Shown piece by piece: positions 26,692 through 35,895 of a DNA stretch of 44,313 nt. A program made the translations under genes and the position numbers. The notes under the pieces are model-generated. The model saw only the letters and a list, made by a program, of their open reading frames with translations, had not been told where the DNA came from and did not search any database. Numbering within the stretch: the stretch's first letter is position 1; every line of letters begins with the position of its first letter. The DNA is from Thiotrichales bacterium (GTDB lineage: Bacteria > Pseudomonadota > Gammaproteobacteria > Thiomicrospirales > Thiomicrospiraceae): positions 1 through 44,313 of the forward strand of contig JAFGXP010000010.1 in NCBI GenBank assembly GCA_016936535.1, given 5' to 3'.

Positions 26692-27828
26692 ATGGCAACC
26701 ACTCGAAAACTCACTGTTTTAGGCAGCGGTTTTGCCGCTTTGACAGCGTGCAAAACCTTGCGCAAACTCAATCCGCAAGCCGAAATCACCTTAATTTCCC
26801 CTGCGGCAGAACTCATTTATCTGCCCAGCATAATTTGGATTCCAGCCGGGCTGCGCCAAGGCGCTGACCTGCGGGTAAATCTGAATCGCTTCTTAGCGAA
26901 ACAGCGCATTACCCATCTGCCGGCGCGGGTTCAAAACGTGAGTCAAGGCGGCCGCTTAGTCACCACGGATCAAGGCGAGTTTACCAACGATGGTCTGATT
27001 ATTGCCTCTGGCGGACGGTTTATCAAAAAACTGTCCGGAATTGAACATGCCATCACCCCATGCGAAGGTATTGCGGCTGCCGAGAAAATTCGCGATCGTC
27101 TCGCGCAGATGTCAGGCGGCACCATTGCGATCGGTTTTGGCACCAATCCTCAGGAAACTTCAGCCATGAGGGGTGGGCCCATGTTTGAGTTTTTATTTGG
27201 CATCGACACTTTGTTACGTCGCCAAGGACGCCGCGATCAGTTTAAGCTAATCTTTTTTAATGCCTCGGCCGAACCGGGCAAACGCTTGGGCGATCAAGTT
27301 CCACAAAAAATCGGGGCCATGATGGCCAAAAAAGGCATCGAATCGCATTTAGGGCACAAAATTATCGGGTTTGAGGCGCAAACCGTTAAAACCGAGGGCG
27401 GTGAGTTTCATGCCGATTTCATTCTGTTTATGCCTGGAATGACGGGCCCAGCTTGGTTACCGGACAGTGATTTGCCCAGCTCAGCAGGCGGTATGATTCA
27501 AGCCAATGCGTTCGCGCAAGTGGTAGGCTGGCCGGCAACCTATGTGGCCGGCGATGCAGGGAGCTTCCCGGGGCCAGACTGGCAAGCGAAGCAAGCGCAT
27601 GCGGCCGATTTACAAGCCAAGACGGCCGCACAAAACTTGACCAAAGAGCTCAATGGTCGAACCAATTTGACGGCCTTTAAGCATGAGTTGATTTGCATTA
27701 TTGATACTTTGTCGCATGGTATTTTAGTCAAGCGTACCGAGCAAGGCACCACCCTTCTTCCGCCTTGTCGCCTGTTGCATTGGGCCAAACGCGCGTTTGA
27801 AGGTGTTTATCTACGTCAATACCGTTAA
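26692..27828 (+). CDS. sulfide:quinone-reductase-like FAD flavoprotein
   Basis: This 378-residue protein has the two-dinucleotide-binding fold of the SQR / type-II NADH dehydrogenase group. The N-terminal FAD site is KLTVLGSGFAALTACKTL. YVAGDAGSFPGPDW is the second flavin motif, and the C-terminal LLHWAKRAFEGVYLRQYR looks like an amphipathic membrane-contact end. Cysteines lie at 20, 123, 335 and 359. The cysteine that canonical SQRs carry before GP-x-[FY]-E is absent (SAMRGGPMFEF, methionine at that place). It may be a divergent SQR class or a different quinone reductase. A GAGG ribosome site precedes the ATG. Confidence 0.75.
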   Translation: MATTRKLTVLGSGFAALTACKTLRKLNPQAEITLISPAAELIYLPSIIWIPAGLRQGADLRVNLNRFLAKQRITHLPARVQNVSQGGRLVTTDQGEFTNDGLIIASGGRFIKKLSGIEHAITPCEGIAAAEKIRDRLAQMSGGTIAIGFGTNPQETSAMRGGPMFEFLFGIDTLLRRQGRRDQFKLIFFNASAEPGKRLGDQVPQKIGAMMAKKGIESHLGHKIIGFEAQTVKTEGGEFHADFILFMPGMTGPAWLPDSDLPSSAGGMIQANAFAQVVGWPATYVAGDAGSFPGPDWQAKQAHAADLQAKTAAQNLTKELNGRTNLTAFKHELICIIDTLSHGILVKRTEQGTTLLPPCRLLHWAKRAFEGVYLRQYR

Positions 27829-27850: not shown

Positions 27851-29095
27851 CTAAACCATTAAATCAATCTGCTGTACCGAGCCAACACCACCGGACTCTT
27901 GCAAAAATACCGAGCTGCTGCGCATCTGGGCCAGTGGCTGGTTTTGGGCATCGGTGAAGGTAAAGGGACTGGCAATCGCGCTCAAGGCAATCGCACCGAC
28001 ATTGAGCGCCAGCAATCCGTGCAACTGTTTTTGGCCTTCTGCGGTTTGGTGCCAAATTTGGAGCTGAGCAAAGACCGAATCGTTTTCATCAATCCAACCG
28101 TTTCCATCTTCATCGTAGGCGGCCAATTCCCCAAACCCCTCGCCGGTTTCCGGTCCAAACAGTTCGCTCCCCTGATCAATCTGACCATTACCATTGCGGT
28201 CTAATGCCAAGAAACCAGAACCTGCTTGCAAAAACGGCAAGCTTTCTTGTTGGCCGTCGTTATTCAAATCAAACGCAATGCGCTCCAAGCTTAAGCGCGC
28301 ATTCTGGCCGCCAAAATTGACAACCAACGGGTCTTGCGGCACCGCGCCTTGCGACTGTTGCCAAGCCGTCGTCTGAAAAAACGTGCGCTGCATCTGCGCT
28401 GAAAATGCAAAGCGAACTTGCTGACCCGACTCGGTCAGCACCACTCCCTCTGCCTGCCAATTCAACTGTTCGGTTTCTTGAAAAGTCTGTTGCCACTGCT
28501 GCTGAACACCAAGATTGGCTGTGGAAGTGAAGGTTGCAGGGGTATTTGTGCTCTCTGCTCGTGCCACTGAGGCTGGCACCGATCCACCTGCGGGAGTTTC
28601 AGCCGCAAGCGGCCGATCTTGATAACCATAGATTTGAAGACGGTAAGGTTTTCCAGTCATCTGCTCAATCAACTGCTCGACGGCTTCGACCATTTTTAAA
28701 AGCTGCGGGGGCATGGTGGGTTTGGACGCTGTAGCGGCATCGGTTGAAGGCACTTGCCGCTGCAATGAAGGCGCAACAAAACGCTGCCACGCACCTTGCC
28801 ATTCACCTGGAGTGAAGGCTTGTGCTGCCAAGCCAGTAGAGTGGGTCCAAACTTGTTGGGTCCGCTGAACCTGCGCGTGTTCTTGTACCCAAGAGCTTGA
28901 GGCGTGACTTTGGCCATCTGCATGAAAGACCTGCATTCTTGCACTCAATGCACGAGCAGCCTGCTGCTGATCCTGAACATTTTGTGTCGCTTGTAATTGG
29001 CCTTGAACAAACATTTGCTGACTTTGTTGACGGGTTTGTTGCTGATACCACTGGGCGTCTGCGCTCAGTTGCAACATCGAATGGGCAATTTTCAT
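27851..29095 (-). CDS. conserved protein with EF-hand-like calcium repeats, function unknown
   Basis: This 414-residue protein has no signal peptide or membrane span. The N-terminal 250 residues are glutamine-rich (QQQTRQQSQQ and similar) with helical character. The C-terminal part carries three acidic loops: FDLNNDGQQES (about 275-285), LDRNGNGQIDQGSELFG (about 298-314), and YDEDGNGWIDENDSVF (about 327-342). The last two have the D-x-[ND]-x-[ND]-G spacing of calcium loops, with SELFG as seen in RTX-type secreted proteins. The tail ends VGSVQQIDLMV. I recall similar C-termini in uncharacterised gammaproteobacterial proteins but cannot name a function. The gene converges on the SQR-like gene (22-base gap), and a structured leader lies upstream. 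Confidence 0.75.
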   Translation of the reverse strand: MKIAHSMLQLSADAQWYQQQTRQQSQQMFVQGQLQATQNVQDQQQAARALSARMQVFHADGQSHASSSWVQEHAQVQRTQQVWTHSTGLAAQAFTPGEWQGAWQRFVAPSLQRQVPSTDAATASKPTMPPQLLKMVEAVEQLIEQMTGKPYRLQIYGYQDRPLAAETPAGGSVPASVARAESTNTPATFTSTANLGVQQQWQQTFQETEQLNWQAEGVVLTESGQQVRFAFSAQMQRTFFQTTAWQQSQGAVPQDPLVVNFGGQNARLSLERIAFDLNNDGQQESLPFLQAGSGFLALDRNGNGQIDQGSELFGPETGEGFGELAAYDEDGNGWIDENDSVFAQLQIWHQTAEGQKQLHGLLALNVGAIALSAIASPFTFTDAQNQPLAQMRSSSVFLQESGGVGSVQQIDLMV

Positions 29096-29324: not shown

Positions 29325-29978
29325 TTATGCCAGTAAATCCTGCCGCCATTCTGGATAACCTTCCAGCAGGCGCTTGGCATCAAAGCCTTGCGCTAGCAAA
29401 GCTTCGACCGCTTCCTGCGACCACATACAGTAAGGCCCGCGGCAATACACAATCAACGGCTGGGCACGATCAAGCTGCGCCAAACTCTGTGACAACTGCT
29501 CAATCGGCACATTAATCGCGTTGGGCAGATGCCCGGCGGCAAATTCATCCTGCGGCCGCGCATCCAGCAAGGTAAACGCCTGCTGGTCGCGCGCCATTTT
29601 TTTCAGCGCCTGCAAAGAGATCGGTTCCAGCGGCGTATCTGGCTTGAGATGTTGTTGCAACAAAACCTGCATCGCCTCTAGCTGGGTTTCTGCCACGGCG
29701 CGCAGGCTGACAATCAGCTCATAGACCGAGGCGTCGCTCAACGCATAAATAATGCGCTGGCCCTCGCGGCGGTTTTTCACCAGACCGGCCTGCTTAAGGG
29801 TTTGCAGATGCTTGGAGACATTGGCAATGCTCAATCCCAACTTGCGGTGCAGCGTGTCCACATCGCACTCGCCCTGGGTGAGCACATCCAGAATCATCAA
29901 GCGGTTGGCCTGCCCCAGCGCCTTGCTGACTTGCGCAAGCTGTTCAAACAGATGCAGTTTTAATGAAGTGGAACCCAT
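29325..29978 (-). CDS. ArsR-family regulator fused to a rhodanese domain
   Basis: This 217-residue protein joins an N-terminal winged helix-turn-helix (about 10-95; ALGQANRLMILDVL, GLSIANVSKHLQTLKQAGLV as recognition helix, REGQRIIYAL as wing) to a C-terminal rhodanese domain (about 115-217). The rhodanese loop carries the sulfur-accepting cysteine C179 in VYCRGPYCMW. The ArsR part has a single cysteine (C38 in QGECDVDTL), not the CVC pair of arsenite sensors, so sensing through the rhodanese cysteine (persulfide or oxyanion) is likelier; that is inference. It lies divergent to an MFS transporter, with two operator-like palindromes between. Composition is GC-richer than nearby genes. Confidence 0.92.
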   Translation of the reverse strand: MGSTSLKLHLFEQLAQVSKALGQANRLMILDVLTQGECDVDTLHRKLGLSIANVSKHLQTLKQAGLVKNRREGQRIIYALSDASVYELIVSLRAVAETQLEAMQVLLQQHLKPDTPLEPISLQALKKMARDQQAFTLLDARPQDEFAAGHLPNAINVPIEQLSQSLAQLDRAQPLIVYCRGPYCMWSQEAVEALLAQGFDAKRLLEGYPEWRQDLLA

Positions 29979-30283
29979 ACGACCTCTTTGCTCGAAAAAC
30001 GGCGCCTAGTTTAGCCTATTTGGGTTGCATCAACAGCCATACCGAGAAAAACCCAGAATCGAACTTCATCACCTTTCCCACTCCACGCGTTTCTAGTTCA
30101 AAGCAAGTTTGCCATCCTGTTTAGCACGAATAGGAACTTACTCTCTTTTAAGATTAGTGCTTTGAAAAACAGGGAGGCTTGCTAAATATCTCCTTCAGAA
30201 ATTCAACCAATTAGTTGATTAACTAATTTTTTTACGTATCATTCAACCAGTAAGTTGAATTAATCGAAATCGCAAGGTGCAGC
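29979..30283. other. divergent control region between the ArsR-rhodanese and MFS genes
   Basis: These 305 bases hold no gene. The right part has the two operator palindromes and the MFS promoter listed separately. The left part (29979-30200) is where the regulator's own promoter should lie, but I see no box I would commit to. The stretch is AT-rich between two GC-rich genes. Confidence 0.6.
30201..30260 (+). promoter_or_regulatory. twin ArsR-type operators overlapping the MFS promoter
   Basis: Two copies of the palindrome ATTCAAC-N6-GTTGAAT lie 40 bases apart: 30201-30220 (one mismatch, GTTGATT) and 30241-30260 (perfect). A promoter fits between them: TTGATT (30215-30220), 16-base spacer, TATCAT (30237-30242). 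The first operator covers the -35 box; the second covers the end of the -10 box and the start site. This layout indicates repression by the divergent ArsR-rhodanese protein. Confidence 0.75.
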
Positions 30284-31597
30284 TTGACCCAACATCGTCC
30301 CCCACTTAGTCAAGCTTTATGCTTCCATTCTCATGGTATCCGCGCCAATCTGGCGCAGATTGTGCAGCAACTGATTCAGGTCTTTCTGGTGGGCTTGACC
30401 CTTGGCATGACGCGCACCGTGGTGCCGGGGCTGGCGGAAAGCGAATTTGGTCTGGCGGCGCAGGCGTTTATGAGTTTGGCGCTGTTTGTGGTGGTGTTTG
30501 GGCTGGTCAAGGCGCTGATGAACCTGCTCGCCGGACACCTCAGCGACCGCTTTGGCCGCCGTCGCCTGTTGGTGGTCGGCTGGCTGCTGGCGATTCCGGT
30601 ACCGCTTTTGATTTTTTACGCGCAGTCCTGGGCGTGGATTTTGTGGGCGATGCTGTTTTTGGGCTTAAACCAGGGGCTGTGCTGGTCGATGGCGCTCAAC
30701 AGCAAGCTCGATCTGGCGCGCGCCGATCAAAAGGGGCTGATTAACGGCTTCAACGAATTTGCCGGCTACGCGGCGGTGGGTCTGGCAGGCTGGGTCAGCG
30801 CGTATCTGGCGGAATTGTTCGGCGCGCGCGACGCCCTGCTCGGCTTTGGTTTGGCGGTGATTGGTTTGGGGCTGCTGCTGGCGCTGTGGAAGGTGATCGA
30901 TACTCATCCCTGGTCAAAATTGCATCAGCAAAACCATCAAGCCGCACAAGCCGAAAAGAGCGAAGCGGTAAATCATCACGCCGTGAGTCTTAAAGCGATG
31001 ATGGTTTATGCCACCTTCAAACAGCCGCAATTGGTGGCGCTCAATCAGGCCGGCCTGGTGGAAAAATTTGTGGATGCACTGGTGTGGGTGTTTATGCCGG
31101 TGTATCTGCTGAGTCAGTCGCAGTCTTTGGTGCAGGCCAGCGCCATTATTGCCGTTTACGGCGTGGTGTGGGGGGCGTCGCAACTTGTCACCGGCCCCTT
31201 GTCCGACAAAGTCGGGCGGCGCGGGTTGATTGCTAGCGGTTTCTGGCTGTGCGGCGTCACCAGTCTGGCATTTGTATGGGTGGAAACGGCTTGGGCGTGG
31301 ACCCTTTTGGCCGCGTTAATGGGCTTGGGCATGGCCATGCTCTACCCAACATTGGGCGCGGCGGTCGCCGATGTGGCCGAACCCAAATCGCGCGCCAGTA
31401 TTTTAGGCATCTACCGTTTCTGGCGCGATTTCGGCTACGCCGCCGGCGCTTTGATGATGGGCGTTTTGGCGTATTACAGCGAATCGGTCATCGGGCCGTT
31501 TTATCTGGTGGGCGCGATGATGCTGCTATCGGGTCTGTGGGTGTGGTTTGCCTTGAAACCGAACACGACCGAACCCCCTAAGCGTTTTGAATCGTGA
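30284..31597 (+). CDS. MFS efflux transporter paired with ArsR-rhodanese
   Basis: This 437-residue protein has about 12 membrane helices and two MFS motif-A loops: AGHLSDRFGRRRLL (about 83-96) and GPLSDKVGRRGLI in the second half. A long polar, histidine/glutamine-rich loop (HQQNHQAAQAEKSEAVNHH) joins the two halves. The start is TTG at 30284, since AAGG lies six bases before it and the next methionine would delete the first helix. Base composition is high in GC (36 of 60 at 30481-30540; 41 of 60 at 30781-30840) against 25 of 60 in arsJ at 35161-35220. The cargo is unknown; control by ArsR-rhodanese suggests a toxic sulfur or metalloid species. Confidence 0.85.
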   Translation: MTQHRPPLSQALCFHSHGIRANLAQIVQQLIQVFLVGLTLGMTRTVVPGLAESEFGLAAQAFMSLALFVVVFGLVKALMNLLAGHLSDRFGRRRLLVVGWLLAIPVPLLIFYAQSWAWILWAMLFLGLNQGLCWSMALNSKLDLARADQKGLINGFNEFAGYAAVGLAGWVSAYLAELFGARDALLGFGLAVIGLGLLLALWKVIDTHPWSKLHQQNHQAAQAEKSEAVNHHAVSLKAMMVYATFKQPQLVALNQAGLVEKFVDALVWVFMPVYLLSQSQSLVQASAIIAVYGVVWGASQLVTGPLSDKVGRRGLIASGFWLCGVTSLAFVWVETAWAWTLLAALMGLGMAMLYPTLGAAVADVAEPKSRASILGIYRFWRDFGYAAGALMMGVLAYYSESVIGPFYLVGAMMLLSGLWVWFALKPNTTEPPKRFES

Positions 31598-31770: not shown

Positions 31771-32688
31771 ATGTTTTTAAATTCATCCCTGCGTTTACCT
31801 ACCCTAACGGCAGCGCTTTTGGGCTTCAGCTTATTGGCTAATCCATTGCAAGCTGCCGAAATCCAAGAAATTAAACAGCCTTACCAAGGTCTGACTGTGA
31901 ATGCGAATTTAATGCTGGCAGACGGCAAAAGCTATGCAGATTCGATGGTGTTGATTACCCACGGCACCCTAACCCACAAGGGCCGCTCAACCTACGCTCA
32001 GTTGCAAAAAAACCTGGCGGCTCAAGGCGTGAGCTCTTTAGCTTTCAATCTTTCTTTAGGGGTTAATGATCGTGATGGAGAATATGACTGCGCCGTTACG
32101 CACACTCACAAACATACCGATGCACTGCAAGAAATTGGTTTCTGGGCCAATTGGCTAAAAGAGCAAGGCAGCCAAGATGTAACCCTGATGGGCCATTCAC
32201 GCGGCGGGAATCAAGCAGCGTGGTACGCAAGTGAACAGGCTGCGCCGAACGTTCAACGCCTGGTGTTATTGGCACCTGCGACGGGCGAACAACAATCCGC
32301 CAGCGAATATTCAGCCAAAGCCGGTAAACCGCTTGAACCGATTCTTAAACAAGCTCAGCAATCGGTTGCAGAAGGCAAAGGCGATACACTGCTACAAAAA
32401 ACCGACTTTATCTATTGTAAAGAAGCTACCGTCAGCGCTGCGGCCTTTGCAGACTATTACACGCCAAAATCACAGTTTGATACCCCATCGCTGTTGAAAG
32501 ATGCCAAACTCCCGACCCTGGTCATAATGGGCAGTGCGGATACTGTTGTCGCGGATCTCCCTGCAAAAATCCAACCTTTGGCTGAAGCCGGAAAAATACA
32601 AACCGTAACCTTGGAAGATGCCGATCACTTCTTCCTCGATTTCGCCAATGAAGACACCGCGAGCGCCATAGTCGAATTTATCCAATAA
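31771..32688 (+). CDS. exported alpha/beta hydrolase
   Basis: This 305-residue protein has a signal peptide (about 1-28, ending NPLQAAE) and an alpha/beta hydrolase fold. ITHGTLTHKGR forms the oxyanion region. The nucleophile S143 stands in MGHSRGGNQ, the acid is probably the aspartate of IMGSADTVV, and the histidine is in DADHFFLDF. Two cysteines (YDCAVT and IYCKEA) could pair in the periplasm. The substrate is unknown; fold and motifs fit DUF3530-like or dienelactone-type esterases. A strong ribosome site (GAGGAGAA) precedes the ATG, and a stem-loop follows the stop. Confidence 0.85.
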   Translation: MFLNSSLRLPTLTAALLGFSLLANPLQAAEIQEIKQPYQGLTVNANLMLADGKSYADSMVLITHGTLTHKGRSTYAQLQKNLAAQGVSSLAFNLSLGVNDRDGEYDCAVTHTHKHTDALQEIGFWANWLKEQGSQDVTLMGHSRGGNQAAWYASEQAAPNVQRLVLLAPATGEQQSASEYSAKAGKPLEPILKQAQQSVAEGKGDTLLQKTDFIYCKEATVSAAAFADYYTPKSQFDTPSLLKDAKLPTLVIMGSADTVVADLPAKIQPLAEAGKIQTVTLEDADHFFLDFANEDTASAIVEFIQ

Positions 32689-33686: not shown

Positions 33687-34709
33687 ATGATTCGGATTGC
33701 TATCAACGGTTTTGGTCGCATGGGACGCTTGGGATTACGTCAGGCATTTGATTGGGGGACAATTGAATTTGTCCATATCAATGAAATCGCCACCGATGCA
33801 GCTGGGTCTGCGCATTTGCTCAACTTTGATTCAGCCCATGGACGCTGGTGCCATAAAGCCACCGAAGCAAACGGTCAAATTGTCATTGGCGAACAGCGTA
33901 TTGGCTATAGCTCGCATAAAAACTTGCAAGACTTTGACTGGGGCGCACTGCAAGTCGATATCGTTTTGGAATGCACCGGAAAGTTTCGTACCCGTGCCGA
34001 TGTTCAACCTTACTTTGACCAAGGCGTGAAACAAGTCATTGTCGCTGCGCCTTTTAAAGAAGGGGTGAAAAATATTGTGATGGGCATTAACGACCAGATT
34101 TTTGTGGCCGGCGAAGACTCCTTAATTACGGCCGCTTCCTGCACCACCAACTGCATCGCACCGGTGATTAAAGTATTGCATGAAAAAATTGGCATTTCCC
34201 ATGGCTCAATCACCACCATGCACAACCGAACCAATACCCAAAAAGTGGTGGATCATGGCCACAAAGACTGGCGTCGTGCACGTTCAAGTTTTGAATCGCT
34301 GATTCCAACCTCCACCGGCTCGGCCACGGCGATTGGCACTATTTTTCCGGAGCTAAATGGCCGCTTAGACGGCATTGCGGTACGCGTGCCTTTTATGAAT
34401 GCCTCGCTTACCGATTTGGTAATGGAAATGCAGCGACCAACCTCGGTCGAAGAGGTCAATCGTCTCTTTAAAGAAGCTTCTGAAACCTATTTAAAAGACA
34501 TTTTAGGTTATGAAGAACTGCCACTGGTGTCGGTCGATTATGAGGGCGAAACCTGCTCATCGGTGATTGATGCGCTCTCAACGCGTGTGATTAATGGTAC
34601 CCATGTTAAGGTGCTTGCTTGGTATGACAATGAAATCGGTTATATGCAGCGGATGATGGAGTTGGCGGTCAAGGTCGGCAAGGCGAATCGGGCCGCACAA
34701 GGAGACTGA
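33687..34709 (+). CDS. gap: ArsJ-associated glyceraldehyde-3-phosphate dehydrogenase
   Basis: This 340-residue GAPDH has the NAD site IRIAINGFGRMGRLGLR, the catalytic cysteine in ITAASCTTNCIAPV, and AWYDNEIGYM at the C-terminus. The active histidine loop reads TMHNRTNTQKVV, where glycolytic enzymes have HAYTNDQ, and HNxTNTQ is what I know from the arsenate-detoxification type. It uses arsenate in place of phosphate to form 1-arseno-3-phosphoglycerate. The arsJ start lies four bases after the stop, so the pair is one operon. No arsR is directly adjacent; the nearest is at 29325-29978. The ATG follows AGGAGAAAAGG. Confidence 0.93.
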   Translation: MIRIAINGFGRMGRLGLRQAFDWGTIEFVHINEIATDAAGSAHLLNFDSAHGRWCHKATEANGQIVIGEQRIGYSSHKNLQDFDWGALQVDIVLECTGKFRTRADVQPYFDQGVKQVIVAAPFKEGVKNIVMGINDQIFVAGEDSLITAASCTTNCIAPVIKVLHEKIGISHGSITTMHNRTNTQKVVDHGHKDWRRARSSFESLIPTSTGSATAIGTIFPELNGRLDGIAVRVPFMNASLTDLVMEMQRPTSVEEVNRLFKEASETYLKDILGYEELPLVSVDYEGETCSSVIDALSTRVINGTHVKVLAWYDNEIGYMQRMMELAVKVGKANRAAQGD

Positions 34710-34713
34710 AAAC

Positions 34714-35895
34714 ATGAATCTGAAACAGCAATATGCGCTGGTTACCGGCAATTATTGGGCTTTTACCCTAACCGATGGCGCTTTGCGAATGCTGGTGCTG
34801 CTGTATTTTTATCAGCTTGGCTATTCCCCTCTCGAACTGGCGTTGCTGTTTCTGTTCTATGAATTTTTTGGGATTGTCACCAACTTGTTTGGCGGCTGGC
34901 TTGGCGCACGGGCTGGGCTCAATGTCACCATGAACCTTGGCTTAACGATTCAGATTGGCGCTCTGATCATGCTAACAGTGCCGACCGAATGGCTCAGTGT
35001 GCTTTATGTTATGGTGGCGCAAGCTTTGTCTGGTATTGCGAAAGACCTGAATAAAATGAGTGCCAAAAGCTCGATTAAAGCCTTAGCCAGTGATGGCGAC
35101 GGCAAGCTTTATCGTTGGGTGGCCGCTTTAACAGGCTCCAAAAATGCCTTAAAAGGGGTTGGTTTCTTTTTAGGTGCTCTCTTACTAGAACTCTTCGGTT
35201 TTGCGAATGCGATGTGGATTATGGCCAGTATGCTGGCGATTGCCTTGCTTGTCTCACTGATTAAACTGGATGGACGTTTAGGGAAAGCCCGTAACAAGCC
35301 GAAATTTGGGCAGATGTTTGCCCATTCGCCAGCTGTTAATTGGCTTTCTGCAGCGCGTTTATTTTTATTTGGCGCGCGCGATGTGTGGTTTGTGGTGGCT
35401 TTACCGGTCTTTGCAGCCAGTGTTCTGGACTGGTCACATTTACAAATCGGCACCTTTATGGCGCTATGGATTATCGGCTACGGTATCGTACAAGCGGCCG
35501 CGCCCAAACTGATTGGTCGTCAACAAAACCCGACGGCACGCCATGCTTTTTGGCTGGCACTGGTCTTGGCGGCCGTACCGATGTTTATGGCCTATGCCTT
35601 GCATTTAGATCCACAAACCATTCTGGTGATTGGCTTACTGATTTTTGGCGTCTTGTTTGCGCTTAACTCAGCCGTTCATTCGTATTTGATTGTTGCTTAT
35701 GCAGATGAAGATGGCACTTCCAAACAAGTCGGATTTTATTACATGGCCAACGCGGGTGGACGCCTGGCAGGAACCTTGTTATCCGGTTATGTATATCAGA
35801 CGGCCGGAATGGAAGCTTGCTTAACGCTATCGGCTGTTTTTATCCTACTCGCGGGATTGCTTGCCCTGCGAATTGAGCGACCCGTTCAAGCCTAA
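34714..35895 (+). CDS. arsJ: organoarsenical efflux transporter ArsJ
   Basis: ArsJ is an MFS-type inner-membrane exporter that removes 1-arseno-3-phosphoglycerate made by its partner GAPDH; the compound breaks down outside, and arsenate is thus expelled. The 393-residue chain has about 11-12 helices and the family stretches ALVTGNYWAFTLTDGALRML, FYEFFGIVTNLFGGWLGAR, and GIAKDLNKMSAKSSIK. The gene is four bases downstream of gap, and its ribosome site (AAGGAG) lies within the gap end. It converges on a small periplasmic-protein gene with a 6-base gap. The assignment rests on sequence pattern and on the gap-arsJ pairing. Confidence 0.94.
   Translation: MNLKQQYALVTGNYWAFTLTDGALRMLVLLYFYQLGYSPLELALLFLFYEFFGIVTNLFGGWLGARAGLNVTMNLGLTIQIGALIMLTVPTEWLSVLYVMVAQALSGIAKDLNKMSAKSSIKALASDGDGKLYRWVAALTGSKNALKGVGFFLGALLLELFGFANAMWIMASMLAIALLVSLIKLDGRLGKARNKPKFGQMFAHSPAVNWLSAARLFLFGARDVWFVVALPVFAASVLDWSHLQIGTFMALWIIGYGIVQAAAPKLIGRQQNPTARHAFWLALVLAAVPMFMAYALHLDPQTILVIGLLIFGVLFALNSAVHSYLIVAYADEDGTSKQVGFYYMANAGGRLAGTLLSGYVYQTAGMEACLTLSAVFILLAGLLALRIERPVQA

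Follow-up and report, generated by a model that had tools for sequence, protein, structure and literature searches.

A predicted ArsR-rhodanese repressor divergent from an MFS transporter gene, and its conserved operator, in a Thiotrichales bacterium

Closest described systems and the two proteins

In the regulators BigR, SqrR and HlyU, a marker pair of cysteines lies in the ArsR domain, on helices alpha2 and alpha5, according to the available text of PMC10509353. The bigR operons pair an ArsR sensor with a sulfur transferase/dioxygenase and a sulfite exporter, as described in the available text of PMC5823870. Here we describe a locus of a sulfur-oxidizing Thiotrichales bacterium (contig JAFGXP010000010.1; the whole stretch of 44,313 nucleotides analysed is called the window) where a fused ArsR-rhodanese gene, RHD (29325..29978, reverse strand), is divergent from an MFS transporter gene, MFS (30284..31597, forward strand, TTG start). 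Both open reading frames, of 217 and 437 aa, are intact and their domains score above the Pfam cut-offs, which bears out the arrangement read by the first-pass annotation.

RHD is a predicted repressor and sensor, with an ArsR helix-turn-helix at about residues 9-95 and a fused rhodanese domain at about residues 123-213. The former is recognized by HTH_5 (35 bits, Pfam cut-off 22) and by the ArsR/SmtB-type model NF033788 (92.1 bits, cut-off 55), placing RHD in this family. The latter scores 63.8 bits (cut-off 22.2) and has the catalytic cysteine, as expected for the rhodanese superfamily. The protein has three cysteines (C38, C179 and C184). Across 97 aligned RHD rows, only the CX4C pair of the rhodanese loop is near-invariant: the catalytic C179 (codon 29442..29444, reverse strand) is cysteine in 97/97 rows, and C184 (codon 29427..29429, reverse strand), the second cysteine of the loop, in 96/97. 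The reactive-cysteine loop YCRGPYC and the lack of the usual metal site in the ArsR part had both been noted before, and both were found here. The CXC site of arsenic-sensing ArsR proteins is absent from the HTH region, where C38 stands alone in GECDVD; it is conserved in 19 of the 37 RHD rows from the window's order.

RHD resembles BigR, SqrR and HlyU in the ArsR fold, an AT-rich palindromic operator, a neighbourhood of sulfur genes and a predicted cysteine-based release from DNA. However, it lacks the alpha2/alpha5 pair and carries the fused rhodanese CX4C instead. The window RHD has no cysteine between residues 39 and 178, and no column of that interval has cysteine in 20% of the 37 order rows. 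The BigR/SqrR equivalog NF040642 scores 59.2 bits on RHD, below its cut-off of 155. The TsoR ArsR/SmtB regulator (NCBIfam NF045707) came second among the curated matches; RHD scores 60.7 bits where 115 are required, and the model, 99 positions long, has no rhodanese part.

In the PDB, the ArsR part matched Mb0332 of M. bovis (2kko, 3gw2) best, both in sequence and in fold; these structures hold the 1-100 fragment only, and the comparison covers the ArsR part. The RHD structure model is confident in the ArsR part and has a pTM of 0.45 as a whole. A PDB fold search with this model gave domain-level matches, with no full-length ArsR-rhodanese protein among the best 50 shown. Mb0332 presumably corresponds to Rv0324, an ArsR-rhodanese protein.

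As far as the available text of PMC5823870 describes the bigR operon and Blh, the RHD cluster is similar in combining an ArsR repressor, an MBL-fold protein (MBL), a sulfurtransferase domain and an exporter. It differs in fusing the rhodanese to the repressor, in having an MFS exporter instead of TauE, and in encoding the MBL as a separate gene, which is absent from the window.

MFS, the predicted target of RHD, belongs to its superfamily (MFS_1, 153.5 bits, cut-off 33.4). No named NCBIfam subfamily scored above its cut-off among the best 25 of 37 models; the top one was PgtP (67.3 versus 407.75 bits), and the ArsJ model was absent from these 25. A PDB sequence search gave weak matches to multidrug exporters such as NorA. 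Each half of MFS has a conserved basic residue near its first helix (R44 and K261); the structure model, built with three sequences, had a mean pLDDT of 57.2, too low to place these charges. Organophosphate antiporters provide an anion-moving analogue for such residues. By this analogy, the MFS cargo may be an anion such as sulfite or thiosulfate.

Operators in the window and in relatives

The first-pass annotation had reported twin palindromes 40 bases apart, straddling a good promoter. The spacing stands: operator 1 (ATTCAAC-CAATTA-GTTGATT, 30201..30220) and operator 2 (ATTCAAC-CAGTAA-GTTGAAT, 30241..30260) start 40 bp apart. Operator 2 matches the palindrome at 14/14 positions and ends 23 bases before the MFS start. 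Operator 1 has one mismatch, in GTTGATT, and matches at 13/14, so that calling both copies perfect was slightly generous. The candidate promoter TTGATT-16-TATCAT is present on the forward strand (30215..30242, 9/12 matches), its -35 inside operator 1 and its -10 touching operator 2. It is the sole promoter-like match in a 521-base stretch, but since 0.6 such matches are expected there by chance, it is weak evidence and, taken alone, not the good promoter described.

The genome of the window (2.12 Mb) has one exact ATTCAAC-N6-GTTGAAT palindrome. Allowing up to two mismatches gave 12 sites, 9 of which have two mismatches; the reversed control also gave 6 at two mismatches. A third near-operator with one mismatch lies at C2:178250-178269 (L111:1501-1520), 32 bases upstream of an 82-aa ORF resembling a small HTH protein.

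In the order, 60 genomes were scanned; 27 of them contain the exact pattern, at 47 sites in all, and none contains the reversed control. Nearly all of these sites (45/47) are located at the starts of RHD, MFS, MBL, alpha/beta hydrolase (ABH) or MoxR genes. The other two, in G049 (beside ORFs matching none of these genes) and at C3:41645 of G012, are both without the usual pyrimidine-N4-purine spacer. A close RHD, at least 50% identical to that of the window, is found in 28 of the 60 genomes. Exact sites at cluster genes were present in 26 of these 28 (the exceptions are G029 and G009) and in 0 of the 32 other genomes (Fisher p 5e-15, indicative only, the genomes being related). The comparison of pair and palindrome across relatives that had been proposed earlier thus gave conservation of both.

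The association extends to the class, for which we sampled 60 loci (58 genomes, two of which gave two loci each) out of 98 genomes with a match. RHD was recovered in all 60 loci. At least 11 of the 12 core bases of ATTCAA-N8-TTGAAT were found within 300 bp upstream of RHD in 38/60 loci, compared with 0.03% of shuffles.

Furthermore, the regulator and the operator vary together. Residue 56 of RHD is a lysine (codon 29811..29813, reverse strand) in the recognition helix predicted from the RHD model (residues 51-63), and it covaries with operator base 7. In the 69 of 97 RHD rows with a site, base 7 is C in 27/27 rows with lysine and in 4/42 rows with other residues. These rows are related to one another: 25 of the lysine rows come from the window's order, and only two, of another family, lie outside it; these two agree. 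No site reached the threshold in 28 of the 97 rows, including 5 lysine rows and all 12 alanine rows, and RHD proteins with alanine at this position may use a different operator. Taken together, the conserved operator and the covariation of helix and operator indicate that RHD very probably binds the ATTCAAC-N6-GTTGAAT sites, and they favour the repression circuit that had been proposed for the locus.

In relatives, neighbouring sites with up to two mismatches lie 46-50 or 90-101 bp apart, which makes the 40 bp of the window unusual. The distance from operator 2 to MFS is the same as in several relatives. Operator arrays with a spacing of about 50 bp recur upstream of MFS (30201-30260, L070-L090), and this spacing does not fit whole helical turns.

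Gene neighbourhood and origin of the pair

The pair had been described as a self-contained module. The relatives do not bear this out, as they add a persulfide-dioxygenase-like hydrolase (the MBL), YeeE, an alpha/beta hydrolase and MoxR-DUF58 genes. Across 41 loci of the order (40 fetched loci and part of the window), the recurrent neighbours of RHD are MFS (33 ORFs), alpha/beta hydrolase (24), MoxR (21), MBL-fold (20), DUF58 (17), a protein group designated cluster 6 (15), YeeE (9), methyltransferase (7) and DsrE (4). MFS occurs in 36 order genomes, and in 31 of these RHD is no more than 3.5 kb away from it. Judged by gene content in relatives, the RHD-MFS pair of the window is a pared-down version of a larger cluster and regulon.

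At the place of the RHD-MFS intergenic region (29979..30283), an MBL gene is present in most relatives of the order that have the cluster; no MBL remnant was found in this region of the window. The window has no MBL, and its genome has 35% matches only, with no close homologue. The persulfide dioxygenase of a bigR-like operon is thus missing from the window; MBL accounts for 20 ORFs in the 41 order loci. Direct RHD-MFS pairs without an intervening MBL are also found in relatives (for example L095, L099, L101-L103 and L108).

The order MBLs are closest to Blh, persulfide dioxygenase and ETHE1-type proteins. In all 20 of those beside RHD (L070:6748-7524 and 19 others), the conserved Asp (GD) that serves as third metal ligand is replaced by His (GH or QH), whereas 5 class MBLs at least 53% identical to them keep Asp. 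Because the Asp position is His, persulfide dioxygenase activity of the order MBLs is not assured; they may hold iron by three His within an ETHE1-like fold, or may have lost the activity.

At the class level, RHD-MBL-MFS operons occur in some loci (L193, L194, L203), and L198 has the order RHD-DsrE-MBL-MFS-SQR-like. DsrE is near the cluster in few loci, namely the 4 ORFs of the order and L195 and L198 of the class. The commonest class partners of RHD in the 60 loci are a fatty-acid-hydroxylase-like group (26 ORFs) and a VTT-rhodanese cluster (25 ORFs), which by themselves do not plainly argue for sulfide detoxification. Many class RHD genes, as at L147:1187-3012, form a conserved unit in which a fatty-acid-hydroxylase-like gene and a VTT-rhodanese fusion point away from RHD and the operator lies between.

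The RHD operator also precedes MoxR-DUF58 genes (L226, L227, L228, L230, L232, L081), which suggests that the MoxR machine belongs to the same regulon. Some of these sites are remote from RHD, about 22 kb away in G053 and on another contig in G054. In G030, two similar RHD-MT-YeeE-MBL-MFS clusters (L071, L072) carry three identical operators each.

In the window, the alpha/beta hydrolase gene (31771..32688, forward strand), a neighbour of MFS conserved in relatives, has native composition (GC3 0.474). An SQR-like gene (26692-27828) was considered as part of the module and rejected; it has 23-25% identity to the SQR-like genes of class loci and native composition. Between this gene and RHD, a 414-aa ORF without a Pfam match (27851-29095) has repeated DxNxDG-like motifs resembling calcium loops. 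Downstream, the genes for ArsJ-associated GAPDH and ArsJ (33687-35895) form an ordinary arsenate-resistance pair of native composition.

A recent transfer had been proposed from the composition of MFS, and we found support for it in both genes. MFS has a GC content of 58.1% and a GC3 of 0.708, and RHD 55.8% and 0.665. Neither matches the surroundings, as the mean GC3 of the window is 0.522 (sd 0.056; 35 ORFs of at least 150 aa, RHD and MFS included) and that of arsJ is 0.500. The corresponding locus of T. cannonii has a GC3 of about 0.69, and its DNA is 86% identical for RHD and 84% for MFS. The flanks match T. cannonii at 66-68% DNA identity, save one 88-base match at 77%. For two control proteins, identity to T. 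cannonii is 68% and 67%, and the highest values among other congeners are 80% and 81%. Trees join the window with T. cannonii for both genes (support 98/97 and 99/99). The GC3 bias, together with T. cannonii as nearest relative despite distant flanks and controls, indicates a T. cannonii-like donor within the genus. Sequence comparison thus supports the acquisition of RHD and MFS together, without the MBL, from a T. cannonii-like congener. That MFS alone is foreign was ruled out, RHD sharing the same bias and the same sister. No flanking direct repeats or tRNA marking an insertion were found around the pair. The stretch of about 370 bp between the two aligned parts aligns to T. cannonii at the operators only. 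The amino-acid identities to T. cannonii (RHD 91%, MFS 87%) exceed the DNA identities, as under purifying selection, which speaks for function. The operator, the match of regulator and operator, and the transfer are supported by computation.

Proposed mechanism and alternatives

We consider it reasonably probable that RHD is a repressor responsive to sulfane sulfur, with the rhodanese loop as its sensing element, and that this response derepresses the MFS exporter. RHD would sit on ATTCAAC-Y-N4-R-GTTGAAT sites and block the MFS promoter. Sulfane sulfur, as persulfide or polysulfide, would be loaded onto C179, and C184 of the same loop would resolve the bound sulfur into a di- or polysulfide. 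The change in the loop would cause RHD to leave the DNA, and MFS, once derepressed, would export something that sulfur stress generates, perhaps an anion (sulfite or thiosulfate, for example). Operators of this kind in relatives would also serve the persulfide-dioxygenase-like MBL, a YeeE-type transporter and MoxR-DUF58. We infer the persulfide signal, the cysteine chemistry, and the direction and cargo of transport. The rhodanese cysteine had been named before as the likely sensor, and the near-invariance of C179 and C184 and the sulfur genes among the conserved neighbours (MBL, YeeE, DsrE and, in L198, SQR-like) favour that reading.

The near-invariant vicinal dithiol would also suit a general thiol-redox or electrophile switch, in which a C179-C184 disulfide is not specific to sulfane sulfur and MFS is a broad detoxifying exporter. 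The weak matches of MFS to exporters such as NorA and the lipid-type genes adjoining class RHDs point the same way. However, the dithiol sits in a rhodanese active-site loop and the YeeE, MBL, DsrE and SQR-like neighbours indicate sulfur, so we regard such a switch as rather unlikely. Sulfur-oxidation control might also place the primary sensor outside the rhodanese, with RHD fed or gated by a partner (DsrE or a TusA-like carrier) or acting as a signal-tuning enzyme. DsrE genes do recur beside the cluster in few loci, but they are rare in the order, and, according to the available text of PMC10509353, small persulfides act directly on the ArsR persulfide sensors; we judge this arrangement unlikely.

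It is very improbable that the pair is a non-functional remnant of the transfer, now in decay. The absent MBL, the mismatch in operator 1 and the intergenic DNA that cannot be aligned to T. cannonii outside the operators would suit decay. Against it, neither ORF is disrupted, both genes are closer to T. cannonii in amino-acid than in DNA sequence, operator 2 has no mismatch and is as far from MFS as in several relatives, and MBL-less direct pairs such as L095 and L108 are known. The least credible alternative, to which we give hardly any weight, is a thiol-reactive oxyanion or metalloid signal (arsenite, selenite or tellurite) with MFS as its exporter. The first-pass annotation had offered such signals, and MFS is followed, some 2 kb further on, by the GAPDH-ArsJ arsenate module. 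But the neighbourhoods show nothing pointing there: RHD has no CXC site, the arsJ module is native in composition and has no such operator (own-genome scan, 0-1 mismatches), and the best MFS model, PgtP, falls far below its cut-off, with ArsJ not among the best 25 of 37.

A search of open-access literature by title and start of abstract found no study of an ArsR-rhodanese regulator. Within that scope, the class of ArsR repressors with a fused rhodanese is apparently undescribed. More broadly, and only tentatively, we propose that a widespread ArsR repressor class moved sulfane-sulfur sensing into a fused rhodanese whose CRGPxC loop is a self-contained dithiol sensor. Its regulon would join persulfide oxidation, a new MFS family of sulfur-anion exporters and the MoxR-DUF58 machine, and residue 56 would set the operator. 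The analysis provides a predicted operator and regulon for 26 genomes of one order of sulfur oxidizers, with a candidate recognition residue. If the sulfane-sulfur reading is true, MFS would stand for a family of candidate exporters of a sulfur product, and RHD would represent a new sensor design in bacterial reactive-sulfur biology, in which a sulfur-receiving, enzyme-like domain is the sensor.
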